DNA of 35,893 bases, taken from the IMG/VR virus record IMGVR_UViG_3300025168_000271, positions 1-35,893 of that record, one strand, 5' to 3'. How positions within the stretch are numbered: position 1 is the first letter of the stretch; each line of letters starts with the position of its first letter. A program made the translations under genes and the position numbers. Below are positions 6,982 through 20,611 of the stretch, piece after piece. The notes beneath the pieces were generated by a model. The model made no database searches. It was given only the letters and a program-made list of their open reading frames with translations, and was not told where the DNA came from. The stretch is from a virus.

Positions 6982-6999
6982 TTCGGGCACCTGCCCGAA
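6982..6999. repeat. Dispersed palindrome copy 1 (centre CC)
   Basis: TTCGGGCACCTGCCCGAA, perfect 8-bp arms around a CC centre. It lies in the divergent control region 137 bases upstream of the 192-aa gene, and GTAAAC follows at 7002. Confidence 0.95.
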
Positions 7000-7019
7000 T
7001 TGTAAACTATGCCATATGG

Positions 7020-7080
7020 TAACATCTAATTACTTTTAGTGGGTAAACCCATTGCATAACACGTTATGACATGGCATAAA
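7020..7080 (+). promoter_or_regulatory. Candidate early promoters upstream of the 192-aa gene
   Basis: TTGCAT (7052-7057), a 17-base spacer and CATAAA (7075-7080) form a moderate sigma70 promoter. Just upstream, ATATGGTAACAT (box at 7020-7025) is an extended -10 resembling ATATGGTAAGAT at the 8387 promoter. Between them lies GTGGGTAAACCC (near 7039-7050), a motif that recurs after the other early promoters. Either or both could drive the plus-strand module; the sequence does not decide which. Confidence 0.4.
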
Positions 7081-7136
7081 TAGTTATCGGGACAGCAAGG
7101 CATTGGGTCGAGCGCCGATTATATGGAGTAAATACT

Positions 7137-7715
7137 ATGACTACTATGACAAAATTGACTGAGAGACTAGCGACTATTGGCGCGAAGCATGGCGTTGAAG
7201 GCCTTGACCTAACCGAGGTGGGAGCAATGGATACTATCCATAAGGCCGAGGGTACGCTGGGTTCAACATATGCTTACATGGTGTCTACTGGCATACTGCC
7301 AACGGATTACTTATCCGCCAAGAATAAAGAAAGTACAGCGTCGGTTGAGCAATACACTGCACGCGGCGAAGCGGCAGGCATGATATGTTACACCAAGGCC
7401 GAACGTGCGGAACTGGCAACCAAATTGCCAAAGGACGCGCCGCAAGGGGAGAAGGACGCGCGTAAGGTGTTACAAGATCGACGCACCGAGTTACTTAAAA
7501 CTATTCGACGCGGGTTGACTACAGCTCACAAGAACAAGTTTCCAGATGAATACAAATCTGGTGGCGCGAATGAGCCTAAGACTGCCATTGAAGATCTTGG
7601 CGCGTTAATGGAAAAGGCAATCAAGTTACTGCAAGGTGACAAGCCGTTTCCTGATACGTTCGCACATGACGACGCGGTAGCGGTTATCAAGGGTTTCCAG
7701 AAAACATTCTGCTAA
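7137..7715 (+). CDS. First early-module protein, unknown function (192 aa)
   Basis: A 192-aa soluble protein, moderately charged, opening MTTMTKLTERLATIGAKHGVEG. The middle is basic and helical (KDARKVLQDRRTELLKTIRRGL, then TTAHKNKFPDEYKSGG) and it ends AVAVIKGFQKTFC. No membrane segment, signal peptide or catalytic motif is visible and I do not recognise the family. GGAG lies 10 bases before the ATG. It is monocistronic: promoter candidates and palindrome copy 1 lie upstream and a strong terminator follows at once. A single gene with its own terminator, next to the divergent control region, is a typical place for an early regulator or host-takeover protein, but that is inference. Confidence 0.85.
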   Translation: MTTMTKLTERLATIGAKHGVEGLDLTEVGAMDTIHKAEGTLGSTYAYMVSTGILPTDYLSAKNKESTASVEQYTARGEAAGMICYTKAERAELATKLPKDAPQGEKDARKVLQDRRTELLKTIRRGLTTAHKNKFPDEYKSGGANEPKTAIEDLGALMEKAIKLLQGDKPFPDTFAHDDAVAVIKGFQKTFC

Positions 7716-7729
7716 CACCTTACCACATG

Positions 7730-7758
7730 GGGCCAGCCTTCGGGTTGGCCCTTTTTTT
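7730..7758 (+). terminator. Rho-independent terminator after the 192-aa gene
   Basis: GGGCCAGCC (7730-7738), TTCG loop, GGTTGGCCC (7743-7751; one G-T pair) followed by seven T. A strong intrinsic terminator 15 bases after the stop codon. Confidence 0.9.
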
Positions 7759-7767
7759 GTGCCTTTT

Positions 7768-7785
7768 TTCGGGCACCTGCCCGAA
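7768..7785. repeat. Dispersed palindrome copy 2 (centre CC)
   Basis: TTCGGGCACCTGCCCGAA, directly downstream of the first terminator's T-run. GATACCAGTA follows at 7794-7803, as it does after copies 3 and 4. Confidence 0.95.
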
Positions 7786-7886
7786 AGTATTTCGATACCA
7801 GTAAGATATTAGCGGTACGCATTGCGTGTTGCGTTACACCACGGATCATGTTAGTTAGATATTACATTGCACCACAATGCCCTACT

Positions 7887-7912
7887 AGGCCCACTTCGGT
7901 GGGTCTTTTTTT
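7887..7912 (+). terminator. Second rho-independent terminator, no gene upstream
   Basis: GGCCCAC (7888-7894), TTCG loop (7895-7898), GTGGGTC (7899-7905), then seven T (7906-7912). The stem has one G-T pair. No protein gene lies between the first terminator (ends 7758) and this one, so it may end a short RNA or serve as back-up. Confidence 0.85.
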
Positions 7913-7913
7913 A

Positions 7914-7931
7914 TTCGGGCATCTGCCCGAA
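7914..7931. repeat. Dispersed palindrome copy 3 (centre TC)
   Basis: TTCGGGCATCTGCCCGAA, 1 base after the second terminator's T-run. Confidence 0.95.
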
Positions 7932-7937
7932 AGTTCT

Positions 7938-7965
7938 GATACCAGTAGATGGAGTAGCTCCACGC
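7938..7965. repeat. 28-bp direct repeat, copy A (with inner palindrome)
   Basis: Begins GATACCAGTAGATGGAG and ends TAGCTCCACGC. TGGAG-TAG-CTCCA inside it is itself an inverted repeat. An identical 28-bp copy lies at 8048-8075, each 6 bases after a TTCGGGCA palindrome, so the true unit is palindrome plus tail, with a 110-bp period. Confidence 0.9.
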
Positions 7966-8023
7966 ATAACACGGGTTGGTACGTTACACACAGTGTAGCC
8001 CATAAGATGTCACCAGATTGTAC

Positions 8024-8041
8024 TTCGGGCAACTGCCCGAA
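8024..8041. repeat. Dispersed palindrome copy 4 (centre AC)
   Basis: TTCGGGCAACTGCCCGAA, the only copy with an AC centre. Exactly 110 bp after copy 3. Confidence 0.95.
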
Positions 8042-8047
8042 AGATGC

Positions 8048-8075
8048 GATACCAGTAGATGGAGTAGCTCCACGC
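8048..8075. repeat. 28-bp direct repeat, copy B
   Basis: Identical to 7938-7965. Follows palindrome copy 4 with the same 6-base gap. Confidence 0.9.
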
Positions 8076-8084
8076 GTCTAAGGC

Positions 8085-8115
8085 ATTGAAAACAAAAGAA
8101 AGTACCGTTTGTACC
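8085..8115. repeat. 31-bp direct repeat, copy A (iteron-like)
   Basis: ATTGAAA, two variable bases, then AAAAGAAAGTACCGTTTGTACC. It matches 8148-8178 at 29 of 31 positions. A degenerate partial copy (GTACCGTTCGTGTACCG) follows at 8112-8128. Confidence 0.85.
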
Positions 8116-8147
8116 GTTCGTGTACCGTCTAAAAAGCGGCATAAGTT

Positions 8148-8178
8148 ATTGAAAGTAAAAGAAAGTACCGTTTGTACC
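8148..8178. repeat. 31-bp direct repeat, copy B (iteron-like)
   Basis: Second copy, 63 bp downstream of copy A. Its end also forms the left arm of the 13-bp inverted repeat with 8271-8283. Confidence 0.85.
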
Positions 8179-8283
8179 ACTTTTTTAAGTATATATATCT
8201 TTCTTTTATTGAAGGGTCTAAGAGAGGGTCTTCGGGCTAAAATCCCTTTTATAAATCTATATGTATCATAGTGGTACAAACGG
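8168..8283. repeat. 13-bp inverted repeat flanking a 90-bp AT-rich core
   Basis: CCGTTTGTACCAC at 8168-8180 is the exact reverse complement of GTGGTACAAACGG at 8271-8283. The 90 bases between are AT-rich, including TTTTTTAAGTATATATATC and TTTTATAAATCTATATG. Inverted repeat, direct repeats and an easily melted core together are what many phage origins look like; origin function is inferred. Confidence 0.6.
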
Positions 8284-8328
8284 GACTTAGCTACTTGGCT
8301 TTATTATCAAGCACTTACAGACCCCCAC

Positions 8329-8348
8329 AACGTCACAGAACGTCACAA
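8329..8348. repeat. Tandem 10-bp repeat AACGTCACA upstream of promoter
   Basis: AACGTCACAG is followed directly by AACGTCACAA, one helical turn apart, about 40-58 bp upstream of the -35 box at 8387. This is a plausible position for an activator site. A looser AAGTCACAA follows at about 8357-8365. Confidence 0.5.
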
Positions 8349-8386
8349 AGCATTACAAGTCACAATACACCACTATACCCCAAAAC

Positions 8387-8415
8387 TTGACATCCCCTTA
8401 CCTATATGGTAAGAT
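8387..8415 (+). promoter_or_regulatory. Strong sigma70-type early promoter
   Basis: TTGACA (8387-8392), a 17-base spacer, TAAGAT (8410-8415), with TGG giving an extended -10. The best consensus match in the window. Transcription would begin near 8422, pass a GTAAAC motif at 8428 and palindrome copy 5, then reach the 70-aa gene. Confidence 0.75.
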
Positions 8416-8473
8416 GTTATATGGTTGGTAAACAAAGGTACGTCTACTACCCAACCATAACCTTAACTTAACT

Positions 8474-8491
8474 TTCGGGCATCTGCCCGAA
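8474..8491. repeat. Dispersed palindrome copy 5 (centre TC)
   Basis: TTCGGGCATCTGCCCGAA in the mRNA leader, 16 bases before the ATG of the 70-aa gene, just upstream of its GGAG. Confidence 0.95.
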
Positions 8492-8507
8492 TAACTGGAG
8501 AGACACT

Positions 8508-8720
8508 ATGTATTATTTGTTACAACACAACGGTAATAAAATACCATGTAAGACTTGGAAGGACATACGAGAGAACCTGACAGGGTATGTAAGCCCCAAA
8601 GAGTTTGCAAGTGCGCAAGACACAATGAGTGACGCCTCGAGTGGTGTGTGGTGTTTTGTTTATGGGTTCCATGTTGATCGTCTTTATAAGGAATATCACA
8701 AGTGTGGAGCAGTGGCATGA
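8508..8720 (+). CDS. Small early protein, unknown function (70 aa)
   Basis: A 70-aa protein, MYYLLQHNGNKIPCKTWKDI..., with aromatic residues (VWCFVYGFHVDRLYKEYH) near its end. No motif is recognised. The start is well supported: GGAGAG lies 7-12 bases before the ATG, behind a strong promoter and palindrome copy 5. First gene of a three-gene operon whose members overlap by ATGA junctions. Confidence 0.7.
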   Translation: MYYLLQHNGNKIPCKTWKDIRENLTGYVSPKEFASAQDTMSDASSGVWCFVYGFHVDRLYKEYHKCGAVA

Positions 8721-8923
8721 ACGAGACAGTAACAGTCCAAGGGTTCGCTTGGAACTCAAATACACGTACGTATTCCGACAAGATTACATACGAGGCACGT
8801 AACTGTGTTGACGCTCAGAACTGGATAGACCGCAAGTCAATGCAACTCGACAATCTGATGATACTACAAGACAACACCAAATTCCTTATGCAACAGATGA
8901 TAGCCGCAGGGTCTACTCAATGA
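8717..8923 (+). CDS. Small early protein, unknown function (68 aa)
   Basis: 68 aa from the ATG at 8717 (MNETVTVQGFAWNSNTRTYS). I prefer this start because it overlaps the previous stop as ATGA and has GGAG nine bases upstream; an in-frame ATG at 8702 would add five residues. The C-terminal half is helical (CVDAQNWIDRKSMQLDNLMI). No family recognised. Translationally coupled to both neighbours. Confidence 0.65.
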   Translation: MNETVTVQGFAWNSNTRTYSDKITYEARNCVDAQNWIDRKSMQLDNLMILQDNTKFLMQQMIAAGSTQ

Positions 8924-9129
8924 GTGGCGGCACGTGTGAATGTGTTGGTTGCGGCGAGGATTATAGTATCCGTCGTAGGCAGCTTGGGTACAACTTCTGC
9001 CTAGATTGTGGTGACTACAATGCCAAGGAGGAAAGACTTGGGTGGTGCATAGCTCCACTGCCCAAACAAGGGTACACATTAATATCGCGCAAGGAAGACT
9101 TGCTACAACTAAACCAGAAAACACGTTAA
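8920..9129 (+). CDS. Small zinc-ribbon-like protein (69 aa)
   Basis: 69 aa with two CxxC knuckles, C8-x2-C11 (CVGC) and C27-x2-C30 (CLDC), separated by 15 residues containing YSIRRRQLGY. This is a classic four-cysteine zinc ribbon. Such small phage zinc proteins bind nucleic acid or proteins such as RNA polymerase, but no specific target is indicated. The start overlaps the preceding stop (ATGA). The next feature is a new promoter, so this is the last gene of its operon. Confidence 0.65.
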   Translation: MSGGTCECVGCGEDYSIRRRQLGYNFCLDCGDYNAKEERLGWCIAPLPKQGYTLISRKEDLLQLNQKTR

Positions 9130-9157
9130 CACACAGGAGGACACAAAAACTCACAAC

Positions 9158-9186
9158 TTGACATTACTCGCTACTTGTGATACATT
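9158..9186 (+). promoter_or_regulatory. Sigma70-type promoter for the 299-aa gene and MoxR/VWA set
   Basis: TTGACA (9158-9163), a 17-base spacer, TACATT (9181-9186). A GTGAGTAAACC motif (near 9194-9204) lies at the expected transcript start, resembling GTGGGTAAACCC near 7039. The leader then holds palindrome copy 6. Confidence 0.65.
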
Positions 9187-9225
9187 ATAGGTAGTGAGTA
9201 AACCTATTTTAAAATTAACTTACCT

Positions 9226-9243
9226 TTCGGGCAGATGCCCGAA
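9226..9243. repeat. Dispersed palindrome copy 6 (centre GA)
   Basis: TTCGGGCAGATGCCCGAA in the leader, 21 bases before the ATG of the 299-aa gene. GA is the reverse complement of TC, so this copy is in the opposite direction to copies 3, 5 and 7. Confidence 0.95.
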
Positions 9244-9264
9244 TATCAAACGGAGGACTAAACT

Positions 9265-10164
9265 ATGAATGATCTATTTACAGCCCCAAGCGTCGATACT
9301 GCACCAAGTATCTCTTCGTCAGCTATGATCGTTGACTTCAACGCAAGCGTGTACACTGCACGTAAGAAAGACCACAAAGCATCCGAGGAAGTGAACCACG
9401 CAAACAGCGCTGACAAGGGTATCGCCAATGTGTCTAAGAACTTACTAGGTAACTGTGCCGAGCTACAAGCAATACAGAAGTTTGTTGGTAATCTGCGCAA
9501 CCTACACTACAGCATGACTTTGCCGTGGTCAGACAACGGGTCACGCCTGATAACCACAGCGGCATTCTTCAAATACAATGACGATATGACAAGGCTCATC
9601 GACGAGGGTTGGGACTTGGTGAGAGCGTTTGGTGACGTGTACGAGTGGAAGATCATGGACGCGCAAGCCACCAATGGCAGTCTTTGGAACCGCGACGAGT
9701 ACCTAACAAAAGATGCAGTGATGCAGAAGTTTTCGTTCCGTCTGAACTACACACCTCTCCCTGAAGCAGGTGACTTCCGTATCGACATTGGCAACGAGGC
9801 TATGACACAGATTAAGTCTAAGTATGCCGCCCACTACACAACCCAGATCGAGGGCGCGATGAATGACCTGTGGCACAGGTTACATGACAACCTGACTACG
9901 CTTGCTCGACAGCTTGACGTCAATGAAGAGGGTAAGGGCAATCGTCTGTATGACAGTGTGTTTGAACAGGCACTGAACCTGACCGAGATGTTGGGTACGT
10001 GTAACGTGACACAGGATACCCAGATGGAAGCGATGCGCCGTCGGTTGGAAGATGTGTTGCATGGGACAAACCTTGAGCAGATCAAGAACTCACCCACGTT
10101 CCGCGAAGAGACGCGCACCAAACTCACAGCGGCAATCGCCGCACTACCAAGTCTGGATATGTAA
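9265..10164 (+). CDS. Partner protein of the MoxR/VWA module (299 aa, unknown)
   Basis: A 299-aa soluble protein beginning MNDLFTAPSVDTAPSISSSA. The middle has aromatic strands (FSFRLNYTPLPEAGDFRIDIG) and the last 100 residues are helical (LWHRLHDNLTTLARQLDVNE, RLEDVLHGTNLEQI). No catalytic motif is visible. Proteins of this size and style (DUF3150-like in my recollection, not verified) sit beside CobS-like ATPases and CobT-like VWA proteins in phages, so it is likely an adaptor or substrate of the ATPase encoded downstream. GGAGG precedes the ATG by about 9 bases. The stop overlaps the ATG of a 30-aa membrane peptide (TAATG). Confidence 0.75.
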   Translation: MNDLFTAPSVDTAPSISSSAMIVDFNASVYTARKKDHKASEEVNHANSADKGIANVSKNLLGNCAELQAIQKFVGNLRNLHYSMTLPWSDNGSRLITTAAFFKYNDDMTRLIDEGWDLVRAFGDVYEWKIMDAQATNGSLWNRDEYLTKDAVMQKFSFRLNYTPLPEAGDFRIDIGNEAMTQIKSKYAAHYTTQIEGAMNDLWHRLHDNLTTLARQLDVNEEGKGNRLYDSVFEQALNLTEMLGTCNVTQDTQMEAMRRRLEDVLHGTNLEQIKNSPTFREETRTKLTAAIAALPSLDM

Positions 10165-10256
10165 TGAAGGGTACTATCCGAGATTTCATCGGGGCCGTGT
10201 GTATCATGGCCCTACCTTTTCTAATACTATATATCGTCCACGGTTTTGGATATTAA
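10164..10256 (+). CDS. Tiny single-span membrane peptide (30 aa)
   Basis: Thirty codons starting with the A of the previous stop codon (TAATG). The peptide has a short charged head (MKGTIRD), then one hydrophobic helix of about 20 residues rich in A, I, L, F, V (IGAVCIMALPFLILYIVHGF) and ends at TAA 10254-10256. It fills the gap exactly: palindrome copy 7 begins two bases after the stop. Translation would be by coupling, since no strong ribosome-binding site is seen. A membrane peptide of this kind could affect host membrane function; function unknown. Confidence 0.55.
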   Translation: MKGTIRDFIGAVCIMALPFLILYIVHGFGY

Positions 10257-10258
10257 CT

Positions 10259-10276
10259 TTCGGGCATCTGCCCGAA
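10259..10276. repeat. Dispersed palindrome copy 7 (centre TC)
   Basis: TTCGGGCATCTGCCCGAA, two bases after the stop of the 30-aa peptide and 17 bases before the ATPase ATG (AGGAG between). Confidence 0.95.
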
Positions 10277-10293
10277 CAACAGGAGTATAGACT

Positions 10294-11388
10294 ATGAACC
10301 AAGCACAACAAATGTACGCACTAGGTCTTGACCAATGTGTGACGCTGATCGGAGCTATCGGGAAAGACCGCACTGTTCTGATCCAAGGTGATCTAGGCAA
10401 TGGCAAATCATCAACACTGCCCGAGTTGGGCAAGCTCAAGCCAACACATAGGACGTTCTATGTAGACTGCACGAGCCTTGACCTCGGTGACATTATGATC
10501 CCCATGATCATGGAGATTGACGAGAACAGCAAGTTCGTTCGCTATGTCACCAACGAGGAACTGGGTCTGCACATCAATGGGCCTGTTATCATTATGATTG
10601 ACGAGTTCGGTAAAGCCAATCCATCTGTCAAGCTAGCGTTGTTGCGTCTCATACTAGAGCGTAAGATCGGTAGTTACACACTGCACCCCGACAGCATTGT
10701 GTATGCAACAACCAACAAAGGGTCAGAGGGTGTGGGTGACATGTTACCACCACACGCACGTAATCGCATGACTGTTGTGCAGGTGCGTAAGTCTACCAAC
10801 ATGGAGTGGATCGAATGGGGTATCAACAATGGTATCGACGCTAGTCTACTTGGTTGGTGCAAGGACAACCCTCACTTGTTCGCATCGTTCGAGGACGTGA
10901 AAGACCCTGATGAGAACGCATACATCTTCCACCCCAAGCAACAGAGGGCGGCGTTTGTTACACCCCGTTCGCTTCACGCGGCATCTGACATCCTACATCA
11001 ACGGCACTTGTTTGACGATCAGACACTGACTTCCGCGCTGATGGGTACTATCGGTGATCGTGGTGCAATGGACTTGATGGCGTTTGTGAAACTGTCTGAC
11101 CAACTACCTAGTCTACAGTCTATCAAGGACGAGCCAAAGACCGCCAAGGTTCCTGACAGTGCCGCCGCTGTATGTATGGTGGTGTATCGTACGCTTGCGT
11201 CAATCGAGTCCGAGTGGCTTAATGCGTGGATGGACTACATGCCACGTCTGGATAACGAAGCACAGGGTATGTTCGCCAATGGCGTTCGTGCGCCCAAGTA
11301 TTCAAAGCAATCTATGGTGATGCAGAACAAGAAGTTCACCAAGTGGGCTATGGATAACAACTATCTGTTCACAGCAGATAAAACATAG
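10294..11388 (+). CDS. MoxR/CobS-like AAA+ ATPase
   Basis: A 364-aa AAA+ ATPase. Walker A GDLGNGKSS (residues 32-40), Walker B VIIMIDEFGKA (98-108), sensor 1 ATTN (138-141) and an arginine-finger-like PPHARNRM (152-159) are all present and intact. The compact N-terminal ATPase followed by a helical lid region fits the MoxR family. Members work as ring-forming remodelling chaperones with a VWA-domain partner; that partner is encoded two genes downstream (11706-12962). The substrate is unknown. AGGAG lies 11-15 bases before the ATG, just after palindrome copy 7. Family call is firm; the cellular role is not. Confidence 0.85.
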   Translation: MNQAQQMYALGLDQCVTLIGAIGKDRTVLIQGDLGNGKSSTLPELGKLKPTHRTFYVDCTSLDLGDIMIPMIMEIDENSKFVRYVTNEELGLHINGPVIIMIDEFGKANPSVKLALLRLILERKIGSYTLHPDSIVYATTNKGSEGVGDMLPPHARNRMTVVQVRKSTNMEWIEWGINNGIDASLLGWCKDNPHLFASFEDVKDPDENAYIFHPKQQRAAFVTPRSLHAASDILHQRHLFDDQTLTSALMGTIGDRGAMDLMAFVKLSDQLPSLQSIKDEPKTAKVPDSAAAVCMVVYRTLASIESEWLNAWMDYMPRLDNEAQGMFANGVRAPKYSKQSMVMQNKKFTKWAMDNNYLFTADKT

Positions 11389-11398
11389 GAGAGAGTAA

Positions 11399-11704
11399 AT
11401 GAGTAAGCCTAAATACAAGAAATGGTCACAGGCAGATGATGCCGAACTGACCTTGATGCGCGAGGCGCGTACGTCAACCAAGGAGATAGCGAAAGCTCTC
11501 AAGCGTACACCTACGTCTGTAACTAATCGTATTGCTACGTTGGGTATACCTAAAGGTAGACATATTTCTAAAGAGACGTTGGATTTTCTTGCAAGAGAAC
11601 GTGCGCGTGAGTTCGGGCAGATGCCCGAAAGTAAAATTGAAACAGTGCAAGGTTCACAACCCAAACCAGCGTGGTGGACGAGCATGATGTGGTGGAGGAA
11701 ATAA
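11399..11704 (+). CDS. Myb/SANT- or GcrA-like DNA-binding protein with palindrome in frame
   Basis: A 101-aa basic protein. Residues 7-53 (KKWSQADDAELTLMREARTS, then EIAKALKRTPTSVTNRIATL) have the tryptophan-spaced three-helix pattern of Myb/SANT or GcrA-type helix-turn-helix domains. The linker is basic and the tail is tryptophan-rich (PAWWTSMMWWRK). Palindrome copy 8 (11612-11629) is embedded in the reading frame and encodes FGQMPE between the DNA-binding domain and the tail. AGGAGAG precedes the ATG. It lies between the AAA+ ATPase and the VWA gene. A natural guess is that it regulates the operon, possibly through the palindrome itself; inference. Confidence 0.75.
   Translation: MSKPKYKKWSQADDAELTLMREARTSTKEIAKALKRTPTSVTNRIATLGIPKGRHISKETLDFLARERAREFGQMPESKIETVQGSQPKPAWWTSMMWWRK
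11612..11629. repeat. Dispersed palindrome copy 8 (centre GA), inside a gene
   Basis: TTCGGGCAGATGCCCGAA, the only copy within a protein gene. Read in frame as FGQMPE with flanking E and S. Confidence 0.95.
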
Positions 11705-11705
11705 A

Positions 11706-12962
11706 ATGTTCGCATTAGGTAAACAACTTACAGAGGAGCAACGGCTGTCTAAAGCGGTCGTTGATATTATGCCTCGCATCCCAGAGATCGCAGGTATGCT
11801 GATGATCGGTGAACGTGTGATTGATGATACTGTGCAAACTGCTTGCACCAATGGGCGTGACGAGTGGTATGGTCGAGAGTTTGTGGCAGAAATATCTGAC
11901 GCAGAGTTGCGGTTTGTCATAATACACGAGGTGTTCCACAAGATATATCGGCACTTGGTAACGTGGCAACACTTGTCCAAGCTGTGTCACCGCACAGCCA
12001 ACATCTCAATGGACTATGACATCAACGGCAAGATCATCAAAGAGTATGGCAAGGACGGTTGGGTCAAGATGCCCGAAGGTGGTTGTCATAGTATCAAGTA
12101 TGATGGTTGGGGTACGGCTAAGATATTCTGGGACATCTACGATCCCGAAGCCGCAAACGATCAACCACAAGATGGACGTGGTAAACCACAAGAAGGAGGT
12201 CAGGGCCAAGGTCAAGGTACACAGGGTAACAGCTTACCAGATGATGGTCACCCGACAGGCTTTGACGAACACGACTGGGAAGGTGCGCAAGATATGACCG
12301 CTGAAGAGAAGCGTGAGATCGAACGTGAGGTGGACGAGGCACTACGCCAAGGTTCATTGGTTGCAGGTAAGATGGGTAGCGGTGGTAATCGTGACCTTGA
12401 TGAACTGCTACAGCCCAAGGTGGATTGGCGTGAAGTGTTGCGCGAGTTTGTGCAGACTACATGTGCAGGGTCTGACTACTCTACGTGGAAGCGTCCTAAC
12501 AGACGATACATAGGTGCAGGTATTTACATGCCATCTGGTATCAGTGAGCAGGTCGATTGCATCGCGGAACACAATGACATGTCTGGTTCGATTGGCAAGC
12601 GTGAGCAACAGATAATGATCAGCGAGTTGGTGGGTATCTGTGAACAAGTCAAGCCTGACGAGTTACACGTAAGCTATTGGGACACTAAGGTGTGTGGGTA
12701 TGAGAAGTATATCAACGACGAGTTGGACACAGTGGCAAAGCGTACCAAGCCCGTAGGTGGTGGTGGAACCGATGTGCGTTGTGTCCCTGAGTATCTGCGT
12801 ACACATAACATAAAACCACAAGCGTCTATCGTGTTTACAGATGGCTATCTCTATGGCGGTTGGGGCGAGTGGGATCATCCTGTGTTGTGGGTGATTGTCG
12901 ATAACAAGGAAGCAAAGCCTGATCATGGCGTTGTTGTTCACATTAAATCGGAGGATTTGTAA
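11706..12962 (+). CDS. VWA-domain metallopeptidase-like protein (CobT/DUF2201-like)
   Basis: 418 aa. The N-terminal domain carries HEVFH (residues 74-78), the zinc-binding HExxH motif, followed by YRHL. A glycine/glutamine-rich linker occupies about 155-180. The C-terminal domain has DMSGS (291-295), the metal-ion-dependent adhesion site of VWA domains (usual DxSxS), then GGGGTD (after KRTKPV) and FTDGYL, the later VWA strands. This two-part layout is that of DUF2201-type putative metallopeptidases with a VWA-like end. In family terms it partners the MoxR/CobS ATPase upstream. Nothing shows that the peptidase is active. The ATG follows the previous stop by one base; the gene ends in GGAGGATTTG, the next gene's ribosome-binding site. 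Confidence 0.82.
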   Translation: MFALGKQLTEEQRLSKAVVDIMPRIPEIAGMLMIGERVIDDTVQTACTNGRDEWYGREFVAEISDAELRFVIIHEVFHKIYRHLVTWQHLSKLCHRTANISMDYDINGKIIKEYGKDGWVKMPEGGCHSIKYDGWGTAKIFWDIYDPEAANDQPQDGRGKPQEGGQGQGQGTQGNSLPDDGHPTGFDEHDWEGAQDMTAEEKREIEREVDEALRQGSLVAGKMGSGGNRDLDELLQPKVDWREVLREFVQTTCAGSDYSTWKRPNRRYIGAGIYMPSGISEQVDCIAEHNDMSGSIGKREQQIMISELVGICEQVKPDELHVSYWDTKVCGYEKYINDELDTVAKRTKPVGGGGTDVRCVPEYLRTHNIKPQASIVFTDGYLYGGWGEWDHPVLWVIVDNKEAKPDHGVVVHIKSEDL

Positions 12963-13187
12963 ATGTCATCAGCACTAAGTAAGCGAAAGTTTACGCCACG
13001 CGCACGTTGGAGCCGAACCAATCCGTTTCAAGAAGACATTCGTGGGTTTGGAAAAGGCACTACTAAAAGGGGGGAAATTGATCCAGACAAAATCCCTGTA
13101 AATCGGAGAGAGCGCAGAGCTTTGGCCGCAGTAAAAAGGAGTAAAGACAATGGCAAAATGGAAGGAGATACCGTTGGGAAAAGTTAA
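12963..13187 (+). CDS. Small basic protein, unknown function (74 aa)
   Basis: 74 aa, rich in Arg/Lys (SKRKFTPRARWSRTNPFQED, VNRRERRALAAVKRSK). No fold is recognised; nucleic-acid binding is possible from the charge. GGAGG lies 10 bases before the ATG, which directly follows the stop of the VWA gene. Its last 38 bases overlap the start of the next gene in another frame. Confidence 0.65.
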   Translation: MSSALSKRKFTPRARWSRTNPFQEDIRGFGKGTTKRGEIDPDKIPVNRRERRALAAVKRSKDNGKMEGDTVGKS

Positions 13188-13341
13188 GAACCTCTTCATG
13201 GATGAACAGGAGAAACTCGAGGATGAGAAAATGCGTTGGGGGTGTAACCCCACTGCCGAGGAAATGGACGCACTGTTGGACGATGTGTTCTACAAAGTGT
13301 GTGGCTTTGTTCCTGTGGCTAAATATGAGGAGGACGAGTAG
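13150..13341 (+). CDS. Small acidic protein, unknown function (63 aa)
   Basis: 63 aa, MAKWKEIPLGKVKNLFMDEQEK..., acidic helical tail ending KYEEDE. AGGAG sits 10 bases upstream of the ATG at 13150, which lies inside the previous gene (38-base overlap). The stop TAG overlaps the GTG of the next gene by one base (TAGTG). No domain recognised. Confidence 0.65.
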   Translation: MAKWKEIPLGKVKNLFMDEQEKLEDEKMRWGCNPTAEEMDALLDDVFYKVCGFVPVAKYEEDE

Positions 13342-13520
13342 TGTATAAAATTTCAATCCTATGGGGACAAAGCCCCGAAGATGGTCAAGAAGCGATCACC
13401 TACAAATTTAACACTCAAGCGGAGTTAGACGCATTTGAGCTTGGAATTGATGAAATGGATGGATGGCTTGGGTACGACGACGATGTGCCAGAGGGTCACG
13501 TTCATAGGGAGAACGAGTAG
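13341..13520 (+). CDS. Small protein, unknown function (59 aa, GTG start)
   Basis: 59 codons from GTG 13341-13343 (MYKISILWGQSPEDGQEAIT...) to TAG 13518-13520. GAGGAGGA directly upstream is a very strong ribosome-binding site and decides the GTG start, which overlaps the previous stop (TAGTG). Acidic, one short beta-rich half and an acidic tail (GYDDDVPEGHVHRENE). Unknown family. Confidence 0.65.
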   Translation: MYKISILWGQSPEDGQEAITYKFNTQAELDAFELGIDEMDGWLGYDDDVPEGHVHRENE

Positions 13521-13750
13521 TGTTCTTATATGTCCTTGTGCTAACTTACGCACTGAATGAGGACACCCCATACTCTGAATGGGAAGAGAGTATCATATGG
13601 CTTCCCAACTACCAAGCCTGTGCAGATGCAATGGACGTAATGTATGACGTTGTGTATGCACACTACCCTAACAGCATTGGAAGGTGCATTGAAACGGACG
13701 TCCCTCGCGGGGGAGTCCTACGACCCAAGATAAGACCTAACAACTTATGA
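13520..13750 (+). CDS. Small protein with hydrophobic N-terminus (76 aa, GTG start)
   Basis: 76 aa from GTG 13520, again overlapping the preceding TAG as TAGTG, with GGGAGAACG upstream. The first 12 residues (MFLYVLVLTYAL) are hydrophobic but without a basic leader, so a weak signal or anchor is possible. Two cysteines (C33, C56) could pair. The tail is basic and proline-rich (GGVLRPKIRPNNL). Last gene before palindrome copy 9. Function unknown. Confidence 0.6.
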   Translation: MFLYVLVLTYALNEDTPYSEWEESIIWLPNYQACADAMDVMYDVVYAHYPNSIGRCIETDVPRGGVLRPKIRPNNL

Positions 13751-13757
13751 CTTAACT

Positions 13758-13775
13758 TTCGGGCAGGTGCCCGAA
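13758..13775. repeat. Dispersed palindrome copy 9 (centre GG)
   Basis: TTCGGGCAGGTGCCCGAA, 7 bases after one stop codon and 21 bases before the next ATG (GGAG between). Preceded by CTTAACT, as at copies 5 and 7. Confidence 0.95.
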
Positions 13776-13796
13776 TAACAAATGGAGTAACATACT

Positions 13797-14858
13797 ATGG
13801 CTATACAATGGCTACAATACGAAGGCTTTGATCACATTGCCAATCAGTACGCAAATACCAAACCACTGATATCGAAATGTCACACGCGTGAAGAGGACAT
13901 ACGTCCCCTCGGTGACCGCAACCGCAAACAAGAGCGCATCAAGAAGATCAGTGACAACTGCTACGTCCTACAAGATGGGTATCACAGTGGTGATGAGGTG
14001 TTCGGTGGCTATCACCGATACAACAGGGATGATCCCTACGCGCCAACCAAACCAACCGAAGCAGAGATAGTCAAACTCGCACCTATCGTATGGCGTAAGC
14101 ACAGAGATGGTTCGGAGACTATTACAATACGTAATGGCACAGGCTACGGTGCGCACAATGGTAGGTATAGCTTCTTAGACAGACACCTGCCAATGGGGCT
14201 TCAGTTTATCATACGTAATGGCAAACATTTTATCCTATGTCAAAATAACGGGGTAGAATACTATCTCGCCAAGAGTTTGACGATGGCAGAACATGCCATA
14301 CCCAAGAAACATATTAAAGGTAGTAGGATCAAAACGGCTGAAGGACGCATGGGTGGCTACACCACACGTGACGATGGTGTGTCATTGACGTTCAAGCGTA
14401 TCACCAAATACCAAAGGTGTTTTGAGTTTGTCAGTGGTGGTAAACCGATACCCAAACCACCAAGGAAGGTCGTGGACAAGGAAGCCAAGGCTAAGATGAA
14501 AGATGCTATCATTGCGTTCCGTAATTGGTCGTCGATTATGTTTCCTATGCTACCTAAAGATGATCGTGAGTACAGAAGTCGTTTGATGCAGGAGTTGTCA
14601 GAACAAACAAACGGAGCTTTTAGTCCGTACATGTGGAACGTGATAGACAGCTTCGGAGATAAGTTCGAGCTATCTCGTGACATCATATCAGATGAGGATC
14701 ACCCACTGCGGTTGCATCTGGCGTACTTCTTGTTCAGTTCTATCGAAGACATATACGACGAGGATATGGATGCCGTTGCGAGTAGAGCGTATGTGATGTC
14801 GGTGTTCAACAGAAGAATAAACAAAGTGTGTAATTTTACAAAAACAGTGAAAGGGTGA
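13797..14858 (+). CDS. Unknown early protein (353 aa)
   Basis: 353 aa, basic and soluble, MAIQWLQYEGFDHIANQYAN.... The N-terminal half has short beta-like segments around GSETITIRNGTGYGAHNGRY and GLQFIIRNGKHFILCQNNGVEYYLAKS. A lysine/proline linker (KPIPKPPRKVVDKEAKAK) follows, then a helical C-terminal domain (AFRNWSSIMFPMLPKDDREY, YFLFSSIEDIYDEDMDAVAS). No motif I can name. GGAG precedes the ATG. It heads a three-gene operon with two other unknowns, after palindrome copy 9. Confidence 0.75.
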   Translation: MAIQWLQYEGFDHIANQYANTKPLISKCHTREEDIRPLGDRNRKQERIKKISDNCYVLQDGYHSGDEVFGGYHRYNRDDPYAPTKPTEAEIVKLAPIVWRKHRDGSETITIRNGTGYGAHNGRYSFLDRHLPMGLQFIIRNGKHFILCQNNGVEYYLAKSLTMAEHAIPKKHIKGSRIKTAEGRMGGYTTRDDGVSLTFKRITKYQRCFEFVSGGKPIPKPPRKVVDKEAKAKMKDAIIAFRNWSSIMFPMLPKDDREYRSRLMQELSEQTNGAFSPYMWNVIDSFGDKFELSRDIISDEDHPLRLHLAYFLFSSIEDIYDEDMDAVASRAYVMSVFNRRINKVCNFTKTVKG

Positions 14859-14862
14859 AACT

Positions 14863-15759
14863 ATGTCTTACAAACATAAATTGGTGAGTGACGCACGTGA
14901 GCATGCCGAGGCTCATTCGGGTGATCTAATTCACTCGCAAGAACTTAGAAACTTCCGCATACGGGTGCATAAAGACTTGCGTGGCGTCGAGACGTTTCCA
15001 CGTTGCCGCAACTCTGCGTGGGTGTGTATAAAGGGTGAGCCTATGGCTCTGGGTTGGATAGGTTATGGTGACTACCAAACCAGCAAAAGCGGTGACCCTA
15101 AGTATGTTGTGTACGCACGTGATGTGGCGAACATGAAGTACAGCGATTACACAGAGCAATACTACATGCGCATGGCGGTCAACATAGATACGGCTGTGAA
15201 ACATGCTAAGAGGTTCATGCGTAAGTACACCACAGATGAGATCGCTAAAGTGTTTGCAGGGGACATCAAGAGAGCAGTGCGTCAGGTAAAAGGCGCGGCA
15301 GATGATGCGTACGAAATTGCTCGAGCCGACGTTGGTATCAAGAACTCTAGCTACAGCGGTGATGCGGATAAAAGGCTTATGTCTGAACTGTTCAATATGA
15401 TTCATGCAGGGCATAAGTTCGTGGACGCTGAACTGGATACAAACATACGCACACTCATGGCAAAGAAGAAGGAGAGCGATAGGTTCGGCGATGCAGACAT
15501 ACCTGTGGACTTCTTACGTACATACGAACACTACGATGGTATGCGTGTGGATACTACGAGGATAGCAGACGTTATGTCTTACAAAACAGAGCCTATGTAC
15601 GACCACAAACATACGTATCTTGCTCAAGACTTGCCCGAAGAACTTGCAGGTAAGGTGGCAGTTATGTCTATGTGTGAGAATGGTCACTTCGTCGAAGGCG
15701 TTGGCTACAAAGTGAATGACGCCATGTTCTACTTCTATGTAGAAGACGTTACCACGTGA
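14863..15759 (+). CDS. Unknown early protein (298 aa)
   Basis: 298 aa, soluble, MSYKHKLVSDAREHAEAHSG.... It has a beta-rich N-terminal part (NSAWVCIKGEPMALGWIGYG, PKYVVYARDVANMKYS), a basic helical middle (KHAKRFMRKYTTDEIAKVFA) and a C-terminal VAVMSMCENGHFVEGVGYKV. No recognisable domain. It follows the 353-aa gene by four bases and overlaps the 83-aa gene by GTGA. The style (separate beta head, helical middle) resembles its upstream neighbour, so the two may act together; inference. Confidence 0.75.
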   Translation: MSYKHKLVSDAREHAEAHSGDLIHSQELRNFRIRVHKDLRGVETFPRCRNSAWVCIKGEPMALGWIGYGDYQTSKSGDPKYVVYARDVANMKYSDYTEQYYMRMAVNIDTAVKHAKRFMRKYTTDEIAKVFAGDIKRAVRQVKGAADDAYEIARADVGIKNSSYSGDADKRLMSELFNMIHAGHKFVDAELDTNIRTLMAKKKESDRFGDADIPVDFLRTYEHYDGMRVDTTRIADVMSYKTEPMYDHKHTYLAQDLPEELAGKVAVMSMCENGHFVEGVGYKVNDAMFYFYVEDVTT

Positions 15760-16007
15760 GTAGGTTCCCAGACATCACATACCACGTACAGATACACCAC
15801 GACACTAAAATAGTCTCAGTAACAACATTAGGTATTAACAGTGTTGACTCAGAGACTATAGGTGCGTATGCTTCTGTGAACAAACTCCCTGCGTGGATGC
15901 AAGATAAGCTAGCAACACTTATGATGTTGGATATACCACCACCACTAAACGATGTAGATGGTGTTGGCAGTAGGCTTGGTCCGTATCTATACTGGGTATA
16001 CAAATAA
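15756..16007 (+). CDS. Small protein, unknown function (83 aa, GTG start)
   Basis: 83 aa from GTG 15756, overlapping the preceding TGA as GTGA. It opens MSRFPDITYHVQIHHDTKIV, has an acidic/proline turn (LDIPPPLNDVDGVGS) and ends LGPYLYWVYK. No family recognised. Its stop is one base before palindrome copy 10. Confidence 0.65.
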   Translation: MSRFPDITYHVQIHHDTKIVSVTTLGINSVDSETIGAYASVNKLPAWMQDKLATLMMLDIPPPLNDVDGVGSRLGPYLYWVYK

Positions 16008-16008
16008 A

Positions 16009-16026
16009 TTCGGGCAGGTGCCCGAA
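16009..16026. repeat. Dispersed palindrome copy 10 (centre GG)
   Basis: TTCGGGCAGGTGCCCGAA, one base after the TAA ending the 83-aa gene; a 53-base leader separates it from the VRR-NUC gene. Confidence 0.95.
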
Positions 16027-16079
16027 ACTCAACGGGGTGGTGTAGTGCCACCCCCACAACTGGTATCGATGGAGAGACT

Positions 16080-16382
16080 ATGACCCCCGAAGCAAAAGTT
16101 AAAAAAGTTGTCACTAAACAACTAAAAGAATTAGGCGCGTATTATTTTTACCCTGTTACTGGCGGCTACGGCAAAAGCGGTGTGCCTGACATAGTAGGGT
16201 GTTACAAAGGGTTCTTCTTTGGGTTCGAGTGCAAGGCAGGTAAGAACACAGCCACACCTCTGCAAGAGAAGAACTTGAAAGAAATCAACCATGCAGGTGG
16301 GCTTGACCTAATAGTGAACGAAGAAAATATGAACTCCATTACGAGAGTTCTATCACGCTGGTCTGTATCCAAACATCACTAA
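16080..16382 (+). CDS. VRR-NUC family nuclease
   Basis: 100 aa, full length for this stand-alone PD-(D/E)xK nuclease family. The catalytic core is visible: GVPDIVGC (P36-D37), FGFECKAGK (E50-x-K52) and a following PLQEKNL with the expected Gln. The fold cuts or trims DNA junctions; phage copies sit in replication modules, as here, upstream of the polymerase. GGAG lies 7-10 bases before the ATG. Confidence 0.9.
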   Translation: MTPEAKVKKVVTKQLKELGAYYFYPVTGGYGKSGVPDIVGCYKGFFFGFECKAGKNTATPLQEKNLKEINHAGGLDLIVNEENMNSITRVLSRWSVSKHH

Positions 16383-16553
16383 CACTAAGGCCAAGCTGTG
16401 AGAGGCCTTGCGACATAGTCTAAATATCCACAGCAACATGGGCAAAGATAACTCCACCCGAGACACTCTTCTTTGTGACCATGTCGGAGAAACTACGAGA
16501 CAGTTAGTCCCTGCGTTTACGCGTGGGGCACCTAACAACTGAGGAGGAGTAAG
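16383..16553. other. 171-bp gap with a small inverted repeat and a doubtful 34-codon frame
   Basis: AAGGCC (16387-16392), an 11-base loop and GGCCTT (16404-16409) form a short hairpin without a T-run. A 34-codon frame follows (16438-16542), without ribosome-binding site. The gap ends in AACTGAGGAGGAGTAAGATGG, which closely repeats the junction before 16903 (ATGAGGAGGAGTAAATGG). No promoter with good spacing was found. Confidence 0.4.
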
Positions 16554-16892
16554 ATGGATAAGTTTGATCGTTTAGAGAGTCTTTTAAGAAAAGCTAAAGA
16601 CCCTGCTTGTTCTTTTGAAGAGGCATCATCCGCTAGAGATATGGCTGAAAAGCTAATGAAGCAAATTGGCGAAACTCGTAACACAAAAGAAAAAATATTT
16701 GTTAAAGGTTTTTACGCCAAGGAGCCGATTGATAAACCCCCGTGGGTCTTATTTGATTTGCATATTAGGCGTGAAGAGTTGATTAATTGGCTTCAACAAG
16801 AAGAAGGCCCGTGGATTAACGCGCAAGTTTGCAGAAGTAAAACCACGGATAAGTGGTACGCAGAAGTAAATCAATGGGCATCTAAAAAATGA
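16554..16892 (+). CDS. Unknown replication-module protein (112 aa)
   Basis: 112 aa in two parts. Residues 1-40 (LESLLRKAKDPACSFEEASS, ARDMAEKLMKQIG) resemble the helical start of DUF2786-like proteins. Residues 48-112 form a compact domain with several Trp (PPWVLFDLHIRREELINWLQ, KWYAEVNQW). The meaning of either is not known to me. AGGAGGAG lies 6-13 bases before the ATG, one of the strongest ribosome-binding sites in the window. Confidence 0.7.
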   Translation: MDKFDRLESLLRKAKDPACSFEEASSARDMAEKLMKQIGETRNTKEKIFVKGFYAKEPIDKPPWVLFDLHIRREELINWLQQEEGPWINAQVCRSKTTDKWYAEVNQWASKK

Positions 16893-16902
16893 GGAGGAGT
16901 AA

Positions 16903-17091
16903 ATGGAAGACGAAAAACTAACCCCGTTCCAAGAGAGCGAACTAAAATACCTGAGACAACAGGTGGATAACCTACAAGATAAGGAAAACAGCAGAGAAAA
17001 ATACTTCAACGTACAACAAGACTTATGGGTAGCACGTGAGGAGTTAGATATGTTTGTGAAGAGCCTACGAGCAGAAGGGAAGAACATATGA
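16903..17091 (+). CDS. Small coiled-coil protein (62 aa)
   Basis: 62 aa, one long charged helix (SELKYLRQQVDNLQDKENSR, REELDMFVKSLRAEGK) with heptad spacing over most of its length; probably a dimer. GAGGAGGAG precedes the ATG. The stop overlaps the next ATG (ATGA). Function unknown. Confidence 0.7.
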   Translation: MEDEKLTPFQESELKYLRQQVDNLQDKENSREKYFNVQQDLWVAREELDMFVKSLRAEGKNI

Positions 17092-17324
17092 ATAAAGTAG
17101 ACCTTATGGGTGTGAAGGATAAGAACGCGTTCAGCGATGCCCTTAAAACAACCAAGCAAGGTGACACTATAAGGTATCACACTGGGTACTACGCAGGGGG
17201 ATTGTTTAAACACGATGCTCTCATGGCGGCAGAAGCACGGCTGGTGAACCTTGTGCAGAAGAAGTTAGGTGCAGGGCTGTTCCAATACATAGCGCAACGC
17301 ACCAAGAAGAAATTCAAAAAGTAA
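17088..17324 (+). CDS. Small conserved phage protein (78 aa)
   Basis: 78 aa starting by ATGA overlap with the coiled-coil gene. The core QGDTIRYHTGYYAGGLFKHD is a segment I have seen in small marine-phage proteins of unknown role. The tail is basic (QRTKKKFKK). Followed by TAGGAGAAC, the ribosome-binding site of the next gene. Confidence 0.7.
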   Translation: MNKVDLMGVKDKNAFSDALKTTKQGDTIRYHTGYYAGGLFKHDALMAAEARLVNLVQKKLGAGLFQYIAQRTKKKFKK

Positions 17325-17341
17325 TCGTTTAGGAGAACGAC

Positions 17342-17845
17342 ATGGCTAAGAAATTAAAGCGCGGTAATAAACAAGTGAAGATATGGTCTTATAAAGTTGA
17401 CCACCCATTGGCTACGGCAAGCGAAGTTGCCAAGGCTACCAACACGTCCTACGGGTACGTGTACAAACTGTTTCAAAGTATCGGCACACCGAAGGAAGTA
17501 TTTGAAGCGGAAGCAAAAGCAAAACCTACTGCTGTATTATCTGACCCAGTGGTTACAGAACACTCACGTTGGAGGTCACGAGGTAATATCTTAGACACAG
17601 CCAAGCAATATGTGGACACAGATCGTGCGGAAGAACATGGTGACATGGAAGATAACTTTCAGCGTATCGCCGCCTATTGGAACGCGCATCTTGGGTTAGT
17701 AAGTTACATCAAGGACACTGATGTTGCGGTTATGATGACCCTGCTAAAGGTAGCACGTATCCATTCAAACACCGAGAATGTTGACAACTGGATTGACGCA
17801 TGTGGTTACATGGCATGTGGTGGTGAGTTAGCTGGTAAAGACTAA
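17342..17845 (+). CDS. HTH plus DUF6378-like protein (167 aa)
   Basis: 167 aa in two modules. Residues 10-55 look like a helix-turn-helix (ATASEVAKATNTSYGYVYKL, FQSIGTPKE). Residues 80-167 match the phage DUF6378 pattern as I know it: ILDTAKQYVDTDRAEEHGDM, NFQRIAAYWNAHLG, DVAVMMTLLKVARI, DNWIDACGYMACGGELA. That helical fold with acidic residues recalls MazG-like nucleotide hydrolases, but no activity is shown. The fusion to a DNA-binding module is unusual. AGGAG precedes the ATG; the stop overlaps the polymerase start (TAATG). Confidence 0.75.
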   Translation: MAKKLKRGNKQVKIWSYKVDHPLATASEVAKATNTSYGYVYKLFQSIGTPKEVFEAEAKAKPTAVLSDPVVTEHSRWRSRGNILDTAKQYVDTDRAEEHGDMEDNFQRIAAYWNAHLGLVSYIKDTDVAVMMTLLKVARIHSNTENVDNWIDACGYMACGGELAGKD

Positions 17846-19674
17846 TGGACCTCATAACCCTAGACTTTGAAACATTTTACGACAAAGACTATTCTCTGCG
17901 TAAGATGACAACAGAAGCCTACGTCCGTGATCCTCGTTTTGAGGTGATCGGCGTGGCTATAAAAGTTAACAATGAGGAAACGGAGTGGGCTAGTGGCACG
18001 AAGGAACAGGTTAAAAAGTATCTCGACACCTTCAACTGGGGCGAAGCTATGTTACTTTGTCATAATACTATGTTTGATGGTGCCATTCTTAATTGGTGTT
18101 TTGATATTCGTCCTCGGATGTATACCGATACTCTGTGTATTGCCCGTGCCCTACATGGGACTGAAGCTCGCGCAAGTCTCGCTGCGTTATCTGAAAGGTA
18201 CAATCTCGGCGTTAAGGGGACAGAGGTCTTGGACGCACTTGGAAAAGGGCGTAGAGATTTTGAACCCGAAGAACTAGGTGCGTACGGGGACTATTGTATC
18301 AATGACGTAAACCTAACGTATAAGTTGTTTAGTGTTATGGCACGTAAGTTTCCTAAGTCGGAGCTACGTTTGATTGACCTTACCCTGCGTATGTACACTG
18401 AGCCTACCCTAGACTTAGACGGGGACTTGCTGGCCTCACATCTTATCGACATCAAAGAGCGTAAGGATAAGTTGTTAGTAGATGCAGGTGTACCTGACAA
18501 GAAGGAGCTGATGTCTAACCCCAAGTTTGCCGAGTTGCTAAAAGGGTTTGGGGTAGAACCTCCTATGAAGATCAGCCCGACCACAGACAAAGAGACGTTT
18601 GCGTTTGCTAAATCAGACGAAGGGTTCAAAGCACTGCTCGACCATGAGAACGAGAATGTGCAGTCTCTAGTAGCGGCACGGCTCGGCACCAAGTCTACCT
18701 TGGAAGAGACACGTACACAGCGTTTTATAGACATCGCAAGGCGTGGGCTTCTACCCGTACCTGTAAGATATTATGCGGCACACACAGGACGTTGGGGTGG
18801 CGACGACAAGATAAACCTGCAGAACCTACCTAGCCGTGGTCCGAACGGCAAGAAATTAAAGAGTAGCATTGTGGCCCCCGAGGGGTATTCCCTCATAGAT
18901 TGTGATAGTTCGCAGATCGAAGCACGGGTGTTGGCATGGTTAGCAGGTCAAGATGATCTCACCACTGCGTTTGCCAATGGGGATGATGTGTATAAGCACA
19001 TGGCGTCCAGTATATATAACGTGCCATCAGACGGGGTGAACAAGGATCAGAGGTTCGTGGGTAAGACTACAATCCTCGGTGCAGGGTACGGCATGGGTGC
19101 AGTCAAGTTTCAAGCACAGTTGCAGACGTTTGGTTTTGACATGGAGCTTGATGAAGCACGTCGCATCATTGACATATACCGAAATACCAACGGGGCTATC
19201 AGTCAGCTATGGCGTGATGCCAACAACATGGTGCAGTGTATGGCGCGTGGCGATAGCGTACAGTTTGGTAAGTCAGGTGTCTTGCAAGTAGACGCACGGA
19301 AGAACGCCATCATGTTACCCTCTGGACTGCCTATGTTTTATCATGGCTTGGCGGCAGAGAAATCCGAACGTGGCTACGAGTATACCTACCGAACAAGAAA
19401 AGGTCCGAATCGGATCTATGGCGGTAAGGTGGTGGAGAACGTGTGTCAAGCTGTTGCACGTTGTATCATAGGGCACCAAATGATACTACTTGCCAAGAAG
19501 TACAAGGCTGTGCTAACTGTACATGACTCAATAATCACATGTGTACGTGACGAAGAACTAGATGAAGCGCAAGCGTACATGGAAGAGTGCATGAGCCAGA
19601 CGCCTGATTGGGCCGAAGGATTACCTATCACCTGTGAAAGTGGCACGGGTAAATCATATGGAGAATGTGAGTGA
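17845..19674 (+). CDS. polA: Family A DNA polymerase with proofreading domain
   Basis: 609 aa. 3'-5' exonuclease: LDFETF (D7, E9), CHNTMFDG (N74, D78) and YCIND (Y150, D154). Polymerase: RYYAAHTGRWGG (309-319) and INLQNLPSRG (323-332), motif A IDCDSSQIEAR (D352), motif B with R403, K407, L411, Y415 (GKTTILGAGYGMG), motif C VHDS (D561). Both catalytic aspartates are present, so it should be active. Leucine stands where E. coli Pol I has Phe762, and motif C is HDS rather than HDE. No 5'-3' exonuclease domain. It replicates the phage genome with the SSB-like protein, primase-helicase and helicase encoded downstream. Overlaps the upstream gene by TAATG and the downstream nuclease by GTGA. Confidence 0.96.
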   Translation: MDLITLDFETFYDKDYSLRKMTTEAYVRDPRFEVIGVAIKVNNEETEWASGTKEQVKKYLDTFNWGEAMLLCHNTMFDGAILNWCFDIRPRMYTDTLCIARALHGTEARASLAALSERYNLGVKGTEVLDALGKGRRDFEPEELGAYGDYCINDVNLTYKLFSVMARKFPKSELRLIDLTLRMYTEPTLDLDGDLLASHLIDIKERKDKLLVDAGVPDKKELMSNPKFAELLKGFGVEPPMKISPTTDKETFAFAKSDEGFKALLDHENENVQSLVAARLGTKSTLEETRTQRFIDIARRGLLPVPVRYYAAHTGRWGGDDKINLQNLPSRGPNGKKLKSSIVAPEGYSLIDCDSSQIEARVLAWLAGQDDLTTAFANGDDVYKHMASSIYNVPSDGVNKDQRFVGKTTILGAGYGMGAVKFQAQLQTFGFDMELDEARRIIDIYRNTNGAISQLWRDANNMVQCMARGDSVQFGKSGVLQVDARKNAIMLPSGLPMFYHGLAAEKSERGYEYTYRTRKGPNRIYGGKVVENVCQAVARCIIGHQMILLAKKYKAVLTVHDSIITCVRDEELDEAQAYMEECMSQTPDWAEGLPITCESGTGKSYGECE

Positions 19675-20593: not shown

Positions 20594-20611
20594 TTCGGGC
20601 AGGTGCCCGAA
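20594..20611. repeat. Dispersed palindrome copy 11 (centre GG)
   Basis: TTCGGGCAGGTGCCCGAA starting the base after the TAA of the basic protein; its last A runs straight into AGGAG of the helicase gene. The rightmost copy. Confidence 0.95.

Follow-up and report, generated by a model that had tools for sequence, protein, structure and literature searches.

A MoxR-type ATPase, a metallopeptidase-VWA protein and a DUF3150-like protein encoded together in a marine phage: conservation, spread and possible role

What work does a MoxR-type AAA+ ATPase do in a phage when its gene stands in a row with that of a protein joining a putative metallopeptidase to a von Willebrand factor A (VWA) domain? The question is raised by positions 9265–12962 of IMG/VR record IMGVR_UViG_3300025168_000271, a tailed-phage fragment from a marine virus of bacteria that was analysed over its full stretch of 35,893 nt (35.9 kb; here ‘the window'). 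Five open reading frames (ORFs) follow one another there on the plus strand, as a first-pass annotation of the sequence had reported. Three of them form a conserved trio: a DUF3150-like protein (9265–10164; 299 aa), the ATPase (10294–11388; 364 aa) and a DUF2201 protein with both metallopeptidase and VWA domains (11706–12962; 418 aa). That annotation had considered no phage function to be settled, which agrees with the conflicting assignments found (virion-assembly chaperone, CobST and the PHROG label ‘HNH endonuclease').

Three conserved genes and their predicted products

The viral comparison set consisted of the best 80 loci of 268 viral relatives found via the ATPase. Wherever the contig extends far enough, the DUF3150 gene lies just upstream and the VWA gene just downstream of the ATPase gene. 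The Walker A and B motifs are intact in 79 of the 79 full-length ATPases, as are HExxHx4H and DxSxS in all 65 full-length VWA proteins; pairwise dN/dS, for the pairs tested, is ≤0.16 for the ATPase and from 0.07 to 0.26 for the VWA protein. By these sequence measures, the trio is judged to be under purifying selection. Neither decay of the ATPase or of the VWA metal site nor separation of the genes, the two outcomes by which the first-pass annotation had proposed to judge its phage-borne MoxR/VWA-metallopeptidase set, was seen: because the motifs are intact and the trio stands together in all of the 80 loci long enough, the set is not refuted, and it gains a third conserved partner.

The other two ORFs are sporadic among the 80 loci and are therefore taken as accessory, outside the conserved core. 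One encodes a 30-aa putative membrane peptide (10164–10256, plus strand), which besides the window was found in only two loci (L006 and L023), so short a query being of low sensitivity. The other encodes a 101-aa helix-turn-helix (HTH; Myb/D5-like) protein (11399–11704, plus strand), found in about 20. The latter had been proposed as a Myb-like DNA-binding protein and as the regulator of the set; it is HTH-like (phrog_323, D5-like, 2e-8) with its Myb identity not proven, and, being sporadic and not tracking the palindromes described below, its membership of the set is not supported.

The ATPase, by its sequence, is of the MoxR/midasin-type AAA+ group, with predicted activity, and its description as an intact MoxR-like ATPase was upheld. 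It matches phrog_1297 (4e-44), and its family profile retrieved midasin from PDB (4.5e-41), then ClpA, NorQ (2.5e-8) and others; the Pfam AAA_5 match (7.8e-4) is just below the Pfam cut-off. Walker A, Walker B, the sensor 1 Asn and the conserved arginines, which are hallmarks of the MoxR type, are all present, and residues G32, G35, G37, K38, S39, D103, E104, N141, R158 and R225 are invariant. Midasin and NorQ, both sequence matches of this profile, work with a VWA module that bears a metal ion-dependent adhesion site (MIDAS). Like the window pair, NorQ-NorD, RavA-ViaA and midasin combine a MoxR/AAA_5 motor with a VWA/MIDAS module, there working on targets that are known; the VWA parts of these systems are not known to carry an HExxH domain.

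In the DUF2201 protein, an N-terminal putative metallopeptidase domain with HExxH (PF13203; 3e-26, 93 bits against a cut-off of 23.2) precedes a C-terminal VWA-like domain with MIDAS (PF09967; 6e-12, 46.3 bits against a cut-off of 26.4). HEVFH and DMSGS are present, MIDAS residues T355 and D379 are invariant, as are four residues close to HExxH (H83, N99, D103 and N107). Over ~135–160 residues, the predicted VWA domain (residues 280–418) superposes on VWA folds (Z ~13–14; root-mean-square deviation 2.2–3.1 Å). In the fold search with the whole model, matches to the VWA domain took up the lists, leaving the peptidase domain unrepresented. The N-terminal profile gave a weak match to MJ1213 (presumably selecase) and to an M48 peptidase around HExxH, which is in line with a zincin and with a putative peptidase activity.

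Two published identities of this protein can be weighed against these domains. It matches phrog_1314 at 5e-78, a family labelled ‘HNH endonuclease' in PHROG, and this name has been copied on many phage records. That it is such a nuclease is scarcely credible: the Pfam metallopeptidase and VWA domains span nearly the whole protein, the modelled C-terminal third is a VWA domain, and no Pfam HNH domain was found in the window protein or in its counterpart in phage N4. The label looks like a propagated misannotation. For the phage pair, CobST has been proposed (PMC8651126), that is, cobaltochelatase subunits that would borrow the host CobN to raise cobalamin supply, and the general motor-plus-VWA architecture is the same. 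This we consider very improbable, as up to E 0.1 no NCBIfam CobS/CobT model matched the pairs of the window, of N4 or of the plasmids, the Pfam match is to DUF2201 rather than to CobT, and the DUF3150 partner is left unexplained. Of the earlier name, ‘CobT/DUF2201-like', the second half is supported and the first is not; nor is the suggested CobST-type metal insertion, and on the reading preferred below the trio is not a metal chelatase.

The 299-aa protein is placed by homology with DUF3150, since a protein annotated as DUF3150 in Synechococcus phage MinM2 matches it (E 5e-20) and PF11348 (DUF3150) is matched by 45 of 53 close homologues (best 1e-6), the window protein itself giving no match. 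Its model consists of long helices (predicted local distance difference test (pLDDT) 80.6, predicted template-modelling score (pTM) 0.70); a fold search found no significant PDB match (best Foldseek E 0.93), and Z reached 9.9 against nothing but small helical bundles, a level usual for such common arrangements. Mean column identity is the lowest for this subunit, at 55%, versus 63 and 82% for the other two.

Location in the early/replication module

The minus strand of the window encodes portal, terminase and a GroES-like co-chaperonin, and the plus strand DNA polymerase A, an exonuclease, a helicase, a primase and a Gp2.5-like single-stranded DNA-binding protein. The palindrome TTCGGGCANNTGCCCGAA occurs 11 times in the window against 0.03 expected, so that the palindromes listed in the first-pass annotation are far beyond chance. 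All 11 lie within 6982–20611, the span of the early/replication module including the trio, with none outside and none in the structural half. A copy of TTCGGGCAGATGCCCGAA (9226–9243) precedes the DUF3150 start by 21 nt, TTCGGGCATCTGCCCGAA (10259–10276) precedes the ATPase start by 17 nt, and the HTH gene contains a second copy of TTCGGGCAGATGCCCGAA (11612–11629), 76 nt upstream of the VWA start; others precede 8508, 13797 and the helicase gene. Thus, by location and palindromes, the trio is part of the early/replication module, the gene content of which suggests early expression. Palindromes are likewise confined to ~12–15 kb in related contigs of 53–64 kb. The promoter that had accompanied the palindromes in the annotation fares less well: a plausible sigma-70-like match exists at 9158–9186, but such matches are at chance level (16 versus 11.4±3.2). 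An Rfam scan of the window and a DNA-level phage search with 9265–12962 each gave no match.

Palindromes are widespread among the relatives. There are seven types, which include TTCGGGCA, TTTAGGGA, TGTTAGTG, GTAGTG and TTTACGGA, and at least two copies of one type are found in 74 of the 80 viral loci, or in 75 loci if the window is counted. The types differ between lineages and are nearly uniform within a genome (two loci are mixed), and each genome, across the window and L002–L081, has its own type ahead of early genes in about 10 and up to 13 copies. Palindromes of one type have fixed arms and a variable centre, with no wider conserved motif. They may act as DNA operators, as RNA hairpins or as boundaries for recombination.

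The DUF3150 gene is replaced between otherwise near-identical phages: between the window and locus L002, DNA identity is ~62–73% across the gene and ~90 and 98% in the flanks. The exchanged segment (9226–10276) lies almost exactly between two palindromes, therefore the repeats might also serve as boundaries for gene swaps. Directly upstream of the DUF3150 gene in most relatives, and at 8920–9129 in the window, is a gene whose small 69-aa product carries two CxxC pairs and probably binds zinc.

Phage and plasmid relatives and the proposed role

The closest sequenced terminases, at 41–47% identity, are those of Pelagibacter phages HTVC027P and HTVC023P, phage 023Pt_psg01, phage DSL-LC04 and Synechococcus phage MinM2. 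No member of the trio was matched in HTVC027P, HTVC023P and DSL-LC04, which have annotated GroES and capsid genes. Farther afield, phage searches returned 553 records matching the VWA protein and only three with DUF3150. The pair in N4 (Schitoviridae) is gp24/gp25, where, as in the window, an AAA+ ATPase gene and a DUF2201 metallopeptidase-VWA gene are adjacent in a non-structural region; unlike in the window, no DUF3150 was found, and identity is only ~25%. In N4-like phages both belong to the core genes, where they are described as ‘unknown' and ‘vWFA domain' and are reported to be middle transcripts (PMC4193335). NZ_CP110465.1 (75,126 bp) is entered as an Acinetobacter baumannii plasmid, yet by its size and VWA match it could be the genome of an N4-like phage.

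The order MoxR-DUF3150-VWA recurs on Burkholderia, Cupriavidus and Rhodovastum plasmids, with a looser version in Simplicispira. The Burkholderiaceae plasmid operon resembles the window in holding all three families contiguously and differs in that DUF3150 comes second, identity is 19–28%, and conjugation or PRTRC genes lie beside it. Bacterial loci were collected by a contig scan with a plasmid-based DUF3150 alignment, the viral DUF3150 alignment having given no matches. Among the 79 loci found in this way, 58 hold all three genes in the order MoxR-DUF3150-VWA, whereas 18 are divergent, with DUF3150 alone at first look; upstream of DUF3150, a weak AAA+ match exists in five of these 18, each of them a planctomycete locus. 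In L154 and L157–L160 (planctomycetes) and in L152 and L153 (deltaproteobacteria), a divergent DUF3150 follows another AAA+-like or Walker A-bearing ORF, with no detectable DUF2201 partner. The ATPase-VWA pair is already known in phages, while its third subunit was not found described (a literature search on DUF3150 found no paper naming it), and, to judge by that search, the three-part form common to these phages and plasmids is new.

Is the trio a virion-assembly chaperone with a processing protease, the plasmid copies helping to build the conjugation apparatus? The group 2.2 jumbo phages, too, pair a MoxR motor with a VWA protein that has a metallopeptidase domain at its N terminus. For this pair, the available text of Iyer et al. 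2021 (PMC7824862) proposes a role in virion assembly, with no mention of DUF3150, and cites a MoxR-vWA system that the Acidianus two-tailed virus needs to assemble its tail. On the side of such a chaperone is also VirB4, a conjugation gene within reach in 32 of 41 long plasmid or chromosomal loci. However, the trio of the window sits in the plus-strand early/replication module, to which the palindromes are confined, and not among the structural genes; it is absent from sister phages whose terminases are related and whose GroES and capsid genes are annotated, and some plasmid copies have no conjugation gene nearby. The absence from sister phages and the occurrence on plasmids argue against a dedicated virion-assembly role, so that the trio is probably not such a chaperone; we regard this explanation as unlikely, though the trio may still be a chaperone for DNA-transfer machines in general.

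An alternative is suggested by NorQD, RavA-ViaA, CbbQO and midasin, in which a MoxR motor and a VWA/MIDAS partner pull on a target and remodel it. By analogy, the ATPase would be the motor and the DUF2201 protein its VWA co-chaperone, the MIDAS-bearing VWA domain docking on the motor or gripping the substrate and the HExxH domain possibly cutting the substrate in addition. DUF3150 would join the complex as a third subunit and may select the target, since it is the least conserved, is swapped between close phages and accompanies the pair in phages and plasmids alike. This ATP-driven remodelling machine would be produced together with the early/replication genes, and its target, during takeover or replication, would be a protein complex of the host or of the phage. 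We rate this proposal as an even bet. A role in early takeover or replication is favoured over virion assembly because of the location, the shared palindromes, the absence from sister phages and the presence on plasmids; the reported middle transcription of gp24/gp25 in N4 (PMC4193335) is counted on the same side.

Several observations weigh against this proposal. The pair is present in N4, S-TIM5 and CRP-7 with no detectable DUF3150, so DUF3150 is not always needed. The proximity of VirB4 to so many plasmid and chromosomal loci fits an assembly chaperone too. The model of the whole DUF2201 protein is moderate (mean pLDDT 71.7, pTM 0.49). Furthermore, the swapping of DUF3150 alleles may in part be hitch-hiking, because the gene lies in a recombining region and its nearest neighbours share the palindrome type in 43 of 44 cases.

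A special case of the remodelling machine, close to the takeover of a host complex or the anti-defence job that the first-pass annotation had suggested, is one that, early in infection, dismantles or degrades a host defence or polymerase complex, the plasmid version protecting entering plasmids. The place of the trio in the early module, its being common to phages and conjugative plasmids, and a DUF3150 that is variable and swapped, as expected of a part facing a changing target, would all suit this version, which nevertheless seems distinctly improbable to us; PADLOC gave no significant match to defence or anti-defence systems.

The first early gene and its palindromes

The first early gene (7137–7715, plus strand; 192 aa; counterparts at 7372–7926 in L010, 6584–7216 in L063 and 5100–5654 in L064) has no family match; across 44 loci its type and the palindrome type agree without exception. 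Between the sister types TTCGGGCA and TTTAGGGA, its identity is 58% within and 23% between types, a difference as large as which arose in none of 1,000 label shuffles, whereas the identities of portal, terminase and ATPase are independent of type. As the shuffles ignore relatedness, their significance is overstated; the contrast with the neighbouring genes is independent of them. Across five types, nearest neighbours agree in type in 44 of 44 cases by the first early gene, in 25 of 35 by portal and in 34 of 44 by TerL. L063 and L064 are ~95% identical in DNA around the ATPase and terminase genes, yet differ in both palindrome type and first gene. The simplest reading of these comparisons is that the first early gene encodes a reader of the palindromes and that gene and palindromes are replaced together.

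The HTH gene was rejected as the reader because it is absent from many genomes with palindromes. The idea of palindromes as hairpin promoters of an N4-type polymerase gained no support either: no motif extends beyond the palindrome, and the 2245-aa virion protein of the window (26746–33483, minus strand) has only an LPD39 polyvalent-protein domain and no PDB match. A T7-type RNA polymerase (PF00940) was not found in nine related contigs of 53–65 kb, though a divergent one could escape the search. In the leader region (7768–8100), palindromes are spaced by ~110–146 bp; GATACCAGTAGATGGAGTAGCTCCACGC stands behind two of them and, in shortened form, behind a third, and two palindromes of this region sit right after terminator-like hairpins.

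The nearest precedent is the SAS/ESAS repeats of Cluster K mycobacteriophages, which lie before start codons in the non-structural half only and have an inverted-repeat consensus that differs between subclusters (PMC3203893). The palindromes described here share the position ahead of starts, the non-structural half and the group-specific consensus; they differ in being near-perfect over 15–18 bp, in coming in several types and in a first gene whose type tracks theirs. This coupled replacement may be more novel than the trio itself. Joining the two findings, we suggest tentatively, and with less than even confidence, that lytic phages and conjugative plasmids share a three-part AAA+ remodelling and proteolytic machine in which DUF3150 is an exchangeable target receptor directed early at complexes of the host. 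In this phage group, the machine would be driven by a palindrome code private to each genome, code and first-gene regulator being replaced as one.

Hundreds of sequenced phages carry the MoxR-VWA pair, the model phage N4 among them, under names that conflict. With the DUF3150 partner and the operon of the plasmids, and with sister phages that lack the trio, it becomes testable what the machine acts on and whether it is needed early or late. The coupled replacement of palindromes and first gene is a natural experiment, in which a regulator and all its sites would switch specificity together.

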